From assembly GCA_001648575.1 (NCBI GenBank), contig LQXN01000064.1, positions 124,001 to 188,000 on the forward strand: a DNA stretch of 64,000 nucleotides, in the 5' to 3' direction. Below the pieces are notes generated by a model. That model made no database searches. It saw only the letters and a list, made by a program, of their open reading frames with translations, and had not been told where the DNA came from. Shown here piece by piece: positions 21,866-47,800 of the stretch. This stretch comes from Sutcliffiella horikoshii DSM 8719 (GTDB lineage: Bacteria > Bacillota > Bacilli > Bacillales > Bacillaceae_I). The stretch's first letter is position 1, and each line of letters starts with the position of its first letter. Both the position numbers and the translations under genes were made by a program.

Positions 21866-22861
21866 TTACTTTAAACCTTCAAGCTCTTCTACAGCTGCTT
21901 TGATCTCATCATCTGTCAATGGAGCAAATCCTGTTTCACTTGAAATAGTTTGTGCATTTTGCATCGTGAAGATTGCGAAATCTAACACTTGTGGTTTTTC
22001 TTTTGCCAAGTTTGTGTTCAAGTAAGTGAATACTGGACGAGTGAAGTCAGCATAATCGCCATCTTCAGCAATCGTGTCTAGAGATGGTTCAACAGGTCCG
22101 TTACCAAAGTCAACCTTTACAGCAGTTAATTTATCTGTGTTGCTTGCATAGTAACCGTAACCGAAGAATCCAATTGCATTTTTATCTTTAGAAACAAGAT
22201 CTACAAGAGTAGAATATTCTTGTTGTAAGTTTGTACCTTCAGCTAAATCTTTTTCTTCAAGGATTTTTTCCCAGAAGAACTCATATGTTCCATGGTTTTC
22301 GTTTGGCCCGTAAGTTTTGATTTCTTCATCTGGGAAATCAGAACGTACATCAGACCATTTTTGTTTATTTCCTTCTGCTAAGAAGATATCAATGATCTCT
22401 TCTTTCGTTAATTCTTGAGCCCAATCGTTTTCTGGGTTGATTACGATAGTCAATCCATCAAGCGCTACTTTCATTTCATGGACATCTAAGCCTAAATTGT
22501 CAGCTTCTGCTTTCTCTTCGTCCTTGATAGTACGGGAAGCATTATTGAAATCAGTACCGTTTTCTACTAGGAACTTTTTGAATCCTGCAGATGTACCAGC
22601 ACGACTTACTTCAACTGAAACGCCCTCTTGAGCTTCTGTCATGTATTTCTCCGCCATAACGGACATGAAAGGATATACTGTACCAGATCCATCAATTACT
22701 ACACTACCTTCAAGTTCTTCTCCGTCTGCTGCTGCAGTTCCTTCAGCAGAAGCTCCTTCTGAAGTTCCGTTACCGTTGTTGTTTGAATTGCCACATGCTG
22801 CAGCGAATACCGCTAAAGATGCAACGATTGCCAGTAATAAAAAACGTTTGAAGCTTTTCAT
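21866..22861 (-). CDS. pstS: phosphate-binding lipoprotein PstS
   Basis: Extracytoplasmic receptor delivering phosphate to PstCA. 331 residues: lipoprotein signal with lipobox FAAACG (Cys23 after cleavage), a low-complexity Asn/Gly/Glu/Ala linker (24-50), then the binding domain starting VVIDGSGTVYPF; phosphate-contacting stretches GSGT, SRAGTSAGFKKF and the NASRTIK segment are all present. First gene of the operon, under a Pho box. Confidence 0.96.
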   Translation of the reverse strand: MKSFKRFLLLAIVASLAVFAAACGNSNNNGNGTSEGASAEGTAAADGEELEGSVVIDGSGTVYPFMSVMAEKYMTEAQEGVSVEVSRAGTSAGFKKFLVENGTDFNNASRTIKDEEKAEADNLGLDVHEMKVALDGLTIVINPENDWAQELTKEEIIDIFLAEGNKQKWSDVRSDFPDEEIKTYGPNENHGTYEFFWEKILEEKDLAEGTNLQQEYSTLVDLVSKDKNAIGFFGYGYYASNTDKLTAVKVDFGNGPVEPSLDTIAEDGDYADFTRPVFTYLNTNLAKEKPQVLDFAIFTMQNAQTISSETGFAPLTDDEIKAAVEELEGLK

Positions 22862-23068: not shown

Positions 23069-23096
23069 AAAAAAACACCCCATTGCGGGGTGCTTT
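23069..23096 (-). terminator. left copy of a duplicated terminator
   Basis: CACCCC-ATTG-CGGGGTG hairpin with an A run on its left (U run on the minus strand). Over 25 bases (23072-23096) it matches 23537-23561 at 23 positions. It is separated from the pbpA-proximal copy by the element at 23097-23536. Confidence 0.8.
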
Positions 23097-23536
23097 CAGA
23101 CTGTTGACAAACTATAGATTAGTTAGGTAATTTGTTGGAACAGTTAATCTTCGTTGCAGGAGCTTCGCTTTCCAGCGGGCGGTCCGTAAGCCTCCTCACT
23201 CCGTTGAAGGCCACTGAAAAGGTACAAAATTCTAGTTATCTGTTTCATCCCGCTGTTGATTTACGCAAACGGCTGCGCTTTCCGCGGGGCGACCTTGAGC
23301 CTCCTCGGGCTACGCCCTGCGGGGTCTCAAGAATGTCGCTATCCCCCCGCTGGAGTCTTCGCCTATTGCTCCAATCAACAGCTAGAGATTCAAAATAAGA
23401 TTAGTTATTGGGTTTGTCAGTGGCCTCCTCCGTTGCGGGATCTTACCTGTCCCTTTATTGTCCCGCTGGAGTCTACGCTCCCTCCACTGCGATCAACTAG
23501 GGAATGTCATTATTATAAAGCTTTGTCTACACACTG
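23097..23536. repeat. GC-rich element, subtype A, copy 1 (interrupted)
   Basis: Begins CAGACTGTTGACAAAC and ends with the complement of CAGTGTGTAGACAAAGC, the same ends as 40272-40478 in inverted orientation. Without the 221-bp insertion and its 8-bp duplication, it would be 211 bp, against 207 bp for the other copy. Both sides carry near-identical terminator hairpins. Short frames inside it (with GASLSxGRSVSLLT) are probably not genes. Confidence 0.85.
23207..23427. mobile_element. 221-bp MITE-like insertion carrying a subtype B element
   Basis: Left end AAGGCCACTGA and right end TCAGTGGCCTC are terminal inverted repeats (10 of 11). The 8 bases CTCCGTTG occur directly on both sides (23199-23206 and 23428-23435). 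Removing the segment and one CTCCGTTG restores a sequence that matches the uninterrupted subtype A copy at 40272-40478. It contains a subtype B repeat at about 23252-23382 (GCTGTTGATT...AATCAACAGC). There is no room for a transposase. Confidence 0.8.
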
Positions 23537-23562
23537 AAAGCACCCCATTGAGGGGTGCTTTT
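23537..23562 (-). terminator. terminator of pbpA (right copy of duplicated pair)
   Basis: AAAGCACCCC-ATTG-AGGGGTGCTTT hairpin just past the pbpA stop; near-identical to 23072-23096. In the minus-strand direction its U run (GCUUUCAGUG) is poor because the element follows directly; the left copy has the better U run. Confidence 0.8.
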
Positions 23563-23568
23563 CTACTA

Positions 23569-25740
23569 TTATTCTGTTTCTTCTTCGTTTTCTTGTTGGT
23601 TTTCCTCTTCTTCCTTCTGCTCTTCAAGTGATGGTTGTCCTTGAGCACGCTTTTGCTTTAAGTCAAAATAAGCTTCCATTACCGCGTCTCCAATTTCTGT
23701 TGTTACACCACCTGTAACACTGAAGTTCGTAGAGGCCTTCGGTACGACGATTGCAAAAGCCATCTCCGGATTATCATACGGTGCATAACCTACAAGGTTG
23801 AAGTTTAGGGTTTCAATCATTTCATATTTAGGATTACCATCAGCATCTTCCCCGACCACATTGAAGATTGGTGATTCTGCTGTACCTGATTTACCGGCTG
23901 GTTTGTATTTTTTAGCTGTTGATCTACTAGCAGTTCCTTGAGCACCATGGTATACACGAATGAATCCTTCTTGAACCCTTCTAAGTTGATCTTCTGTAAC
24001 CTCCAAGCGGTTCAATACTTCCGGCTGGAATCCTCTTGCAACAGTACCCATTCCTTCTGCCTGAGAAGGATCTCGTATCTCTCTCACCAGCTGAGGTTTC
24101 ATACGGTATCCCCCATTTGCTATGGTGGATACATACTGTGCCAATTGCAGGGTAGTATAGTTATCATACTGACCAATGGATAAATCTAGATATTTACCTG
24201 GCAAGCTTCTGTCCATTCCTATTACCCCGGTTGATTCTCTAGGCAGGTCAATTCCTGTCTCTACACCAAGTCCGAATTGAGCCAATGATTTTCTAAACAC
24301 GTCATACGCACTTGGGTCAATAAACAATGGGTTATATGGTCTATAATTTGCTTTTGCAATGTCTAATGCAATATTGAACATATAAACGTTAGAAGATCTC
24401 TCAAGTGCAGTTAGTTCATTGATTGTTCCCATGTTCACATAAGACGCTTTTCTTGTCGGGTTTTCCCTTGAACCAATATACACTGGAGCATCATGATAGT
24501 ATTTATTGTTATGCACCACTCCATGTTCCATCCCTGCCAGTACGCTTGCTCCCTTGACAGTAGAACCAGGTTCATAAGCCTCCTGGAACGTTCCAAGTGC
24601 ATTATCAAGCACCTCATACTTTCCATCTTCCAGAACGATTTGCTTTCCTGCAAGAGATAGAACTTCTCCTGTTTTGGGATCCATGACGACAACAAATGCC
24701 CGGTCTAAATATCTAGCTTCGGCTTTGGGTTTCGTCCTTAACAAAGCTTCAGTCAAAATTTCCTCGACCTGTTGTTGAAATTCCATATCGATGGATAAAA
24801 TCAGATCTTTCCCTCTTGCTCCATCAAATACCTTTTCCTGGTGAAGCAGGTTTCCGGCGGTGTCTGTGACGTTTCGGACACGTGCTTTTTGTCCCTGCAA
24901 TACATTTTCATATTGTGCTTCAATCTGACTAATCCCGATACGGTCATTCCGACTATAGCCCCTGGCAAGAAACTCATCTATCCTCTCACTTGGAATACCG
25001 GTTTCCGATGTGGATACTTTTCCAAAGATGGAGCGCAATGTATTATCATATACATAATCCCTGACAAAATCTGTAGTGATGTCCACACCAGGGAGGTCTC
25101 CAAGCATTTCACTTACCATCGCAAATTCCTTGGCAGTTACATCTTGGTTTTTGACAATTTGCGGAGTAAGTGAATAACCTTTATTGAATTCGCGGAAGAT
25201 GGCAAGCACCTCTTCCTCTTCAGGAGTTATTTCAGCAATTTGGCTATCGGTGATACGTTCTAACTGAAGTTTATAGAGTTCACTTTCTTCCATTTCACCG
25301 TCTGCAACCTTATCACGATCCTCATCGGTGATTAAAGCTGCCGCTTCTTCTGGCCGTGTAAGGATCCAATAATCTTGTCGGTCACGCGGTTGGATTTTTT
25401 TTGTATCCATCGTGATGACTTCAGATAGTTTCTTTGCAACTTCCAGCTGTTCTTTTGCCGTAGTTGATTGCATGCGTGTGTATGTAATTGCATTCAGAGG
25501 CGTATTATCCACCACAACATTTTCGTAACGATCAAAAATCTTCCCTCTTGGTGCCAGCGTATTGACCGTGACATTTTCCGTCCGGTCCACTTCTTTGCGA
25601 TAATCCTCACCGAATACGATCTGCACAAAGCCCAACCTTAGTATCAAGGCAGAGAAGAGTAAGAATACCGCAAAAAACAAAAGGTTCAAGCGAGATGGGA
25701 CATAATTCTTTTTTTTCTTTTTTTGTTTTTGATTGGTCAT
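23569..25740 (-). CDS. pbpA: class B penicillin-binding protein PbpA (PBP2A type)
   Basis: Transpeptidase of lateral-wall peptidoglycan synthesis, anchored in the membrane. 723 residues (B. subtilis PbpA about 716): lysine-rich cytoplasmic N-terminus, TM helix about 17-40, dimerisation domain starting TLAPRGKIFDR, transpeptidase with active-site EPGSTVKGA (Ser-x-x-Lys), ERSSNVYM (Ser-x-Asn) and KPAGKSGTAE (Lys-Ser/Gly-Thr). The C-terminus is an acidic Glu/Gln tail. Located between yqgE and pstS as in B. subtilis. Confidence 0.95.
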   Translation of the reverse strand: MTNQKQKKKKKNYVPSRLNLLFFAVFLLFSALILRLGFVQIVFGEDYRKEVDRTENVTVNTLAPRGKIFDRYENVVVDNTPLNAITYTRMQSTTAKEQLEVAKKLSEVITMDTKKIQPRDRQDYWILTRPEEAAALITDEDRDKVADGEMEESELYKLQLERITDSQIAEITPEEEEVLAIFREFNKGYSLTPQIVKNQDVTAKEFAMVSEMLGDLPGVDITTDFVRDYVYDNTLRSIFGKVSTSETGIPSERIDEFLARGYSRNDRIGISQIEAQYENVLQGQKARVRNVTDTAGNLLHQEKVFDGARGKDLILSIDMEFQQQVEEILTEALLRTKPKAEARYLDRAFVVVMDPKTGEVLSLAGKQIVLEDGKYEVLDNALGTFQEAYEPGSTVKGASVLAGMEHGVVHNNKYYHDAPVYIGSRENPTRKASYVNMGTINELTALERSSNVYMFNIALDIAKANYRPYNPLFIDPSAYDVFRKSLAQFGLGVETGIDLPRESTGVIGMDRSLPGKYLDLSIGQYDNYTTLQLAQYVSTIANGGYRMKPQLVREIRDPSQAEGMGTVARGFQPEVLNRLEVTEDQLRRVQEGFIRVYHGAQGTASRSTAKKYKPAGKSGTAESPIFNVVGEDADGNPKYEMIETLNFNLVGYAPYDNPEMAFAIVVPKASTNFSVTGGVTTEIGDAVMEAYFDLKQKRAQGQPSLEEQKEEEENQQENEEETE

Positions 25741-40240: not shown

Positions 40241-40271
40241 AAGAAGCCAGGAACTTGGTTCCTGGCTTCTG
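40241..40271 (+). terminator. left copy of duplicated terminator (yqfT side)
   Basis: AGAAGCCAGGAAC and GTTCCTGGCTTCT form a near-perfect hairpin with a small TTG loop. Over 31 bases it differs from 40479-40509 at one position. Its plus-strand U run is interrupted by the element that follows; UUUUAUC is present on the minus strand. Confidence 0.8.
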
Positions 40272-40478
40272 CAGTGTATAGACAAAGCTTAAAATAATGA
40301 AATTCCTTAGTTGATCGTAGTGGAAGGCGCGTAGACTCCCGCGGGAGGAAGGGACAGGTAAGACCCCGCAACGAAGTGAGGAGGCTTACGGACCGCCCGC
40401 AGGAAAGCGAAGCGCCTGTAACGAAGAGTAACTGTTCCAACAAATAACCTAGCTAATTTATAGTTTGTCAACAGTCTG
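40272..40478. repeat. GC-rich element, subtype A, copy 2 (intact, 207 bp)
   Basis: Starts CAGTGTATAGACAAAGC and ends with the complement of CAGACTGTTGACAAACT, imperfect terminal inverted repeats. The interior has GTAAG/CTTAC arms flanking GCCTCCTC and CGGGGT blocks. It lies exactly between the two copies of the yqfT/nfo terminator. Same sequence family as 23097-23536, in opposite orientation. Confidence 0.88.
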
Positions 40479-40509
40479 AAGAAGCCAAGAACTTGGTTCC
40501 TGGCTTCTG
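40479..40509 (-). terminator. terminator of nfo (right copy of duplicated pair)
   Basis: Same hairpin as 40241-40271 with one base different (AAGAAC for GGAAC context); it ends 5 bases before the nfo stop codon. Confidence 0.8.
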
Positions 40510-47548: not shown

Positions 47549-47637
47549 TATGTCTCTTGACTATATTGTACCTCAAAAGAAGGTAACTGATGTGTTATTA
47601 GGAATTTTTTTTAGTAAAGTAGTTCTGTTCTAATTCC

Positions 47638-47766
47638 GCTGTTGATTTGCGCAAACGGCTTCGCTTTCCGCGGGGCGACCTTGAGCCTCCTCGGCTTCGC
47701 CTGTGGGGTCTCAAGATTGTCGCTACTCCCCCGCTGGAGTCTACGCCTTTTGCTCCAATCAACAGC
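47638..47766. repeat. GC-rich intergenic element, subtype B, copy at 47 kb
   Basis: Ends GCTGTTGATT and AATCAACAGC. Arms GCGACCTTGAG and CTCAAGATTGTCGC pair, around GCCTCCTC and GGGGTCTC. More than four fifths of positions match the copy within 23207-23427 by eye. Intergenic between cccA and the acyl-CoA dehydrogenase gene. Confidence 0.85.
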
Positions 47767-47800
47767 TAGAAATCCTTAGAAATTATTTGCTAATTATTTA

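Follow-up and report, generated by a model that had tools for sequence, protein, structure and literature searches.

Repeat elements at two terminator loci

The window, that is, the whole 64,000-nucleotide stretch analyzed here, belongs to a host genome of 4.68 Mb in 67 contigs. It contains an ORF that the initial annotation named pbpA (23569–25740, minus strand), whose terminator is the target of the insertion described below, and a downstream ORF for a putative PstS-like phosphate-binding lipoprotein, named by eye (21866–22861, minus strand). Between the two lies a subtype A element of 440 bp (23097–23536, plus strand) with the ends CAGACTGTTGACAAA / CAGTGTGTAGACAAA and terminal inverted repeats at 23097–23111 (plus strand) and 23522–23536 (minus strand). 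It is flanked by two copies of the pbpA terminator hairpin, neither assigned to a strand (left, 23072–23096; right, 23537–23561), which form a 25-bp target duplication with 23 of 25 positions identical. The 10-bp outer stem is perfect in the right copy and has one mismatch in the left; the left copy keeps the A-tract, which is the U-tract for pbpA transcription on the minus strand.

The 440 bp had been described as a single element, and while its outer coordinates stand, its unity does not: it is a composite of an A element of about 220 bp and a second element, B, of 221 bp nested within it (23207–23427, plus strand; start AAGGCCACTGAAAA, end TCAGTGGCCTC). B is bordered by its own 8-bp duplication, CTCCGTTG (23199–23206 on the left and 23428–23435 on the right, both unstranded), and is missing in the orthologous 210-bp A copy of a relative (L136, 1263–1472). 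At 47624–47773 lies a decayed, partial copy of the B core (150 bp at 90% identity), with a terminator-like hairpin about 100 bp away and no B ends visible by eye. An Rfam scan of the window at gathering scores returned no match.

The second locus, at 40 kb, carries a plain A element of 207 bp without nested B (40272–40478, plus strand). Its flanks are two unstranded copies of a 31-bp hairpin (40241–40271 and 40479–40509; 30 of 31 positions identical), and this hairpin differs from the one duplicated at pbpA. The flank identity and the paired hairpins of the initial annotation were thereby confirmed at both loci.

Searching the genus for the pbpA locus gave a match in 15 of 16 genomes. In 13 of these 15, the element is absent and the hairpin is single, and no A end (up to two mismatches) or B end (up to one mismatch) was present in the stretch checked at these empty sites. 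They include the closely related G008, whose flanks are almost the same; some more distant genomes have a single pbpA hairpin of different sequence. In yet another genome, G014, a plain 210-bp A lies between two hairpins. The pbpA locus therefore exists across the genus in three states: an empty terminator, A, and A with nested B. At the 40-kb locus, all 14 other matching genomes have a single hairpin and lack paired A ends; in seven of these relatives (L235–L241), other GC-rich repeats (GAGGAGGCT and the like) adjoin the single terminator. The proposal that the duplicated hairpin is a property of the target agrees with both sets of orthologous sites, since relatives without the element have one terminator at each locus, and two terminators without the element occurred at neither.

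Subtype A copies and their probable IS1182-family partner

With up to one mismatch allowed, the genome contains 353 occurrences of the A end motif, compared with 20 of a reversed control, implying roughly 170 A copies. We sampled contigs C3 and C4 as a whole, positions 1–400,000 of C5, and the window, and paired the ends; after overlapping or weaker pairings were dropped, 38 candidates were left, one of which is a broken IS. In 36 of the 38, the similarity between left and right flanks exceeded the 99th percentile of 1406 cross-pairings between different elements, and the two failures (C4:70801 and C4:80561) look like wrongly paired ends. The top cross-pair score, 26, was beaten by 8 of 38 candidates and the third-highest score, 14, by 35 of 38; the cross-pairs scoring 26 and 16 come from two tandem copies with a common hairpin. 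At C5:353707–354163, two elements stand in tandem and one and the same hairpin is present three times, the pattern that a further insertion into an already duplicated target would leave. Nearly every sampled A copy has a different hairpin. Ungapped duplications of 21–33 bp are present in 29 of the 38 candidates, and seven more duplications needed gaps and were judged by eye. Paired, matching flanks are thus the rule among the sampled copies, in support of the earlier suggestion that the element inserts at intrinsic terminators and duplicates the whole stem-loop.

The duplications are in register with the hairpins. When each empty site was rebuilt with a single copy of the duplication, the outer 6 bp of the A sites were self-complementary at 0.86 in register versus 0.20–0.35 when shifted by 1–5 bp. 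The first and last bases of the duplication are A and T in 21 of 29 sites, and an A- or T-tract (at least 5 of 8 positions) adjoins 24 of 29. None of the 28 scored sites lies wholly inside an ORF of at least 120 aa (one touches such an ORF), compared with 452 of 600 random positions, a distribution that fits the "nearly harmless" insertion of the initial annotation. Short and non-coding, subtype A resembles a MITE and has the ends CAGnnTGTnGACAAA of an IS1182-family lineage.

A search with the Pfam domain DUF772 revealed a decayed IS with A ends in the host genome (C4:393188–394685); the hairpin around it is duplicated and has partly eroded. An intact A-type IS, L127, was found in genome G007 through a genus search with a transposase fragment, and the same IS is present on plasmid NZ_CP082921.1 of Sutcliffiella horikoshii. 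L127 encodes a 448-aa transposase, has the ends CAGCTTGTAGACAAA / CAGACCGTAGACAAA and carries the same 30-bp hairpin on both sides. A transposase with matching terminal repeats, as called for by the initial annotation, therefore exists: CAGnnTGTnGACAAA is common to the MITEs and L127 (left end exact, right end with one mismatch) and occurs in the broken IS of the host genome as well, and the end CAGACTGTTGACAAA of another IS locus (L128) equals the window A end over 15 bp. Matches to the IS1182-family model NF033551 (cut-off 270 bits) reach 477.4 bits for L127, 492.4 for L320 and 444.1 for L335, and L127 also scores above cut-off for PF05598, PF01609 and PF13751 (DUF772 and DDE domains). By these profile matches, the L127 transposase is assigned to the IS1182 family, and the mover of A is likely an IS of this family, as judged from the shared ends. 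In the genus search, this genome yielded only broken A transposases and no intact one. Truncated A-type transposase fragments also lie at C58:23749–26946 (L061) of this genome with its roughly 170 A copies.

Two other affiliations were rejected. The initial annotation had considered a kinship with IS1549/IS1634, which does not agree with the family of the partner: L127 has no IS1634 match at E 0.001, and L335 reaches only 23.5 bits against a cut-off of 100. The second candidate, L063 (C67:27068–30286; gene at C67:28568), is an intact 451-aa IS1182-like transposase of the host genome scoring 262.8 bits, just below the 270-bit family cut-off, but its ends differ (approximately TGAATGAATTTCATAA), and no hairpin duplication was seen at its candidate ends. 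L063-like sequences in L064 and L065 are cut by contig ends.

We used the best 80 of the 461 relatives that a protein scan with L127 gave across the contigs of 84,980 species; they span Bacillaceae and related families to Thermoactinomycetaceae. Together with L127, L129, L132 and L133 they form a set of 84 IS loci (L134, L128 and L130 were not entered), 71 of which could be scored, the other 13 being without an end or flank. In this set of the best 80 of 461 plus four, the hairpin is duplicated in 65 of the 71 scorable copies; 63 duplications are perfect, and all 65 are distinct in sequence. They measure 19–42 bp and are centred on the dyad axis of the hairpin, with an outer-base pairing of 0.93 in register versus 0.21–0.33 when shifted by 1–4 bp. 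The six copies without a duplication are L188 (which has a run of N), L167, L168, L220, L221 and L224; the last has two different hairpins at its ends, which could have arisen by recombination between copies. Only 3 of 57 IS copies lie inside an ORF of at least 100 aa (7 touch one). Of the 65 IS sites, 49 have a duplication that begins with A and ends with T, and 59 have an A- or T-tract (at least 5 of 8) alongside; together with the tracts at the MITE sites, this marks most of the targets as likely intrinsic terminators. As the lengths vary between 19 and 42 bp at a fixed symmetry, the limits of the duplication follow the hairpin. The length of the A duplication is set by the structure of the target and not by a fixed number of bases.

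Copies within single genomes point in the same direction. Genome G011 carries a relative 50% identical to L127, four copies of which are identical over 1563 bp, while the duplicated hairpin around them (20–27 bp) differs from copy to copy; in Bacillus sp. OV166, 12 copies have 12 different duplications. Hence, the element does not include the hairpin. The G011 copies (L129, L132, L133 and L134) have in common an in-frame TAA, which leaves the transposase as two ORFs of 193 and 254 aa, and the presence of these split-gene copies in four different hairpins suggests recent movement despite the split. L320, from a Rhizobium plasmid (45% identity), and L335, from Macrococcoides canis, show the same arrangement. 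In the ISCfr1-type relatives L321 and L322, the junction is itself palindromic, so that target and inverted repeat are not separable; the relatives from Sulfurimonas, Priestia NCT-2 and Thermaerobacter (L323, L333 and L334) allowed no clear call either way.

Element B and the transposase tree

The 221-bp B core represents a second family, with the ends GAGGCCACTGAAAAA. B ends bound IS in G005, G008 and G009, which encode transposases of 484–493 aa; G005 has five such copies with 1862 bp between AGGCC ends. The B transposase L252 scores 355.6 bits against NF033551 (cut-off 270), which places it in the IS1182 family, and B transposases are found in 23 of 199 genomes of the order at E 1e-80. Using end patterns widened to fit ends already seen, we detected an 8- or 9-bp duplication at 65 of 73 B places (57 perfect); the remaining 8 have no duplication of 7–10 bp. 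The six flanking bases pair at 0.47 in register versus 0.19–0.38 when shifted, and at 0.53 versus 0.21–0.38 in the 39 sites outside repeat hairpins. In the 22 B MITE sites, the value in register (0.44) is no better than that one base off (0.48), and the register of B is weaker than that of A.

By a motif test, at least 26 of the 65 B sites are hairpins within repeat elements of the window kind, so B often inserts in A-like elements. The short A and B elements (window 23097–23536; L254–L266 and L271) differ in their ends and are alike in their GC-rich interiors (GCTTTCCGCGGGCGG...GCCTCCTC), whose hairpin is a frequent B landing site. In a tree of 39 transposases (L161, L162 and L187, which contain internal stops, are not among them), A and B fall on opposite sides of a branch with a support of 100/100. 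B is a separate IS1182 clade that duplicates 8–9 bp near the hairpin centre. A constant stagger of 8–9 bp is ordinary for a DDE transposase; what is unusual in B is the choice of hairpin centres, whereas in A it is the stagger itself, which scales with the hairpin.

Target recognition, termination and known systems

We consider it very probable that A and its IS relatives insert exactly at the stem-loop foot, in most cases that of an intrinsic terminator, and duplicate the stem-loop whole, with a cruciform as the presumed target and read-through to the far hairpin copy as the presumed outcome. The initial annotation expected termination to work on both sides, which does not fit the limits of the duplication: it ends at the foot of the stem, and the U-tract is not copied. 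Among the 65 IS copies, the 8 nt after the hairpin contain on average 5.1 T on the outer side (130 sides) versus 2.5 on the element side, where the count never exceeds 4. A scan with a consensus terminator likewise flagged only the far copy at pbpA as terminator-like (the left copy, minus strand). As the U-tract is not duplicated, termination is expected at the far copy, and probably works there only. A transcript from either side would then pass the near hairpin, which has lost its U-tract, and the element, and end at the distal hairpin, and the element would become part of the 3' UTR. No clear bias in element orientation relative to the tract was seen.

As the likely mechanism, we propose attack on a cruciform at two opposite corners. 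An A-type transposase, which we infer to have moved the copies in this genome, would read its target as an extruded cruciform, a four-way junction. The two 3' ends of the element would attack the two 5' feet, which lie on opposite strands at diagonal corners of the junction and would stay close together at any arm length; gap repair after this joining would then copy the whole hairpin. If the other diagonal, with the 3' feet, were attacked, the hairpins would end up as flaps and be lost, the outcome published for IS1272. Two possible alternatives to the cruciform stand beside this scheme: a palindromic duplex cut at its ends, and action at replication forks.

The first of these is the main rival, although we regard it as rather unlikely. 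Here, a transposase dimer would bind both half-stems of a palindromic linear duplex and cut with a long stagger at its ends, with no cruciform involved. The two-fold symmetry of target and duplication suits a dimer, terminators presumably exist as duplex DNA as well, and the B clade with its constant 8–9-bp centre is better explained in this way; yet all 65 IS targets are distinct and their cuts are separated by anything from 19 to 42 bp, which is hard to reconcile with a dimer on B-form DNA. Selection offers another route to the observed sites, if insertion were random with a variable stagger and only landings in terminators were kept. The absence of sampled MITE sites wholly within ORFs would agree with such a filter, but selection cannot set the exact dyad register of the duplication, and the identical, probably recent IS copies show this register too, making the explanation very improbable.

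The remaining two readings have even less in their favour. That A is a non-autonomous IS1634-type relative, which lands at terminators by chance, would account for the long and variable duplications; we judge it extremely improbable, as the partner is of the IS1182 family and a structure-blind stagger would not lock to the hairpin dyad as closely as the 0.93 in register against 0.21–0.33 out of register. Alternatively, the hairpins might belong to the element as terminal structures homogenized by gene conversion. Two alike hairpins do flank the element nearly always, but identical copies within one genome have different hairpins, and relatives without the element keep a single hairpin, of nearly the same sequence in the closest ones, so that we give this idea practically no credence. 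Returning to the cruciform reading, each insertion leaves two hairpins and tandem re-insertion is seen, which makes terminators candidates for renewable landing sites. The wider generalization is that in IS1182 transposases, as DDE enzymes, the secondary structure of the DNA determines the target stagger, with terminators as renewable landing sites; it seems to us about evenly balanced between true and false.

Normally, the length of a target duplication reflects how far apart the two sites of strand transfer lie on duplex DNA, a distance that does not vary. Because the A duplication tracks the hairpin in length, the attack of a DDE transposase on extruded cruciforms in living cells becomes testable, and if terminators do extrude in vivo, this would bear on the natural existence of cruciforms, which has long been doubted. 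Such targeting may likewise explain how roughly 170 copies of an element can accumulate in one genome while genes are largely missed. Moreover, each element lies with one half of a gene's termination signal on either side, a position in which it could shape 3' UTRs.

Among known systems, elements of the IS1549 / IS1634 family have long and variable target duplications, a feature they share with A; their transposase family differs, and we know of no description of these duplications as locked to hairpins. Bacterial MITEs are short and non-coding, have terminal inverted repeats, duplicate their target and reach high copy numbers. A differs from MITEs in general in that the duplicated target is a structure of variable length and not a fixed few bases. 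Closer in sequence is ISEfa7 of E. faecium (named after the annotation of CP063563.1), which has a transposase 58–59% identical to the A type and the ends CAGACTGTAGACAAA, and groups with A in the tree. Of eight places in E. faecium plasmids, six adjoin the same ABC transporter permease gene and add little; four of the eight (L317, L318, L319 and L325) were scanned for ISEfa7 ends, which were not clear in L319 and L325. Two distinct sites could be resolved in these plasmids, and at neither do the two flanks of ISEfa7 share a duplication, unlike those of A, possibly as a result of later rearrangement.

A close published counterpart is IS1272 / TnSha1 of the IS1182 family in staphylococci, which targets stem-loops, often terminators, without a sequence consensus, and removes the stem-loop completely or in part with no duplication (PMC4923244; PMC5678879). 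IS1272 and A thus have in common an IS1182 transposase, a stem-loop target and an insertion point at the hairpin; they differ in that IS1272 deletes the hairpin, whereas A duplicates it whole (36 of 38 MITE candidates and 65 of 71 IS copies from the best 80 of 461 plus four). A general remark on hairpin targeting by IS1182 members goes back to a 2015 review, as quoted in both papers (PMC4923244; PMC5678879). Duplication of the whole stem-loop (pathway b) and of the loop (pathway c) was drawn as hypothetical in 2017, in passages that give no examples (PMC5678879). In the open-licence literature searched, we found no whole-hairpin duplication by IS1182 elements, and the direct-repeat entries of ISfinder may list some. 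As far as these sources go, hairpin targeting by IS1182 members is known, and what appears to be new is the duplication of the whole hairpin, in a family that copies, splits or deletes its target. Set against the two pathways drawn in 2017, A looks like a natural case of pathway b, and B approximately like pathway c.
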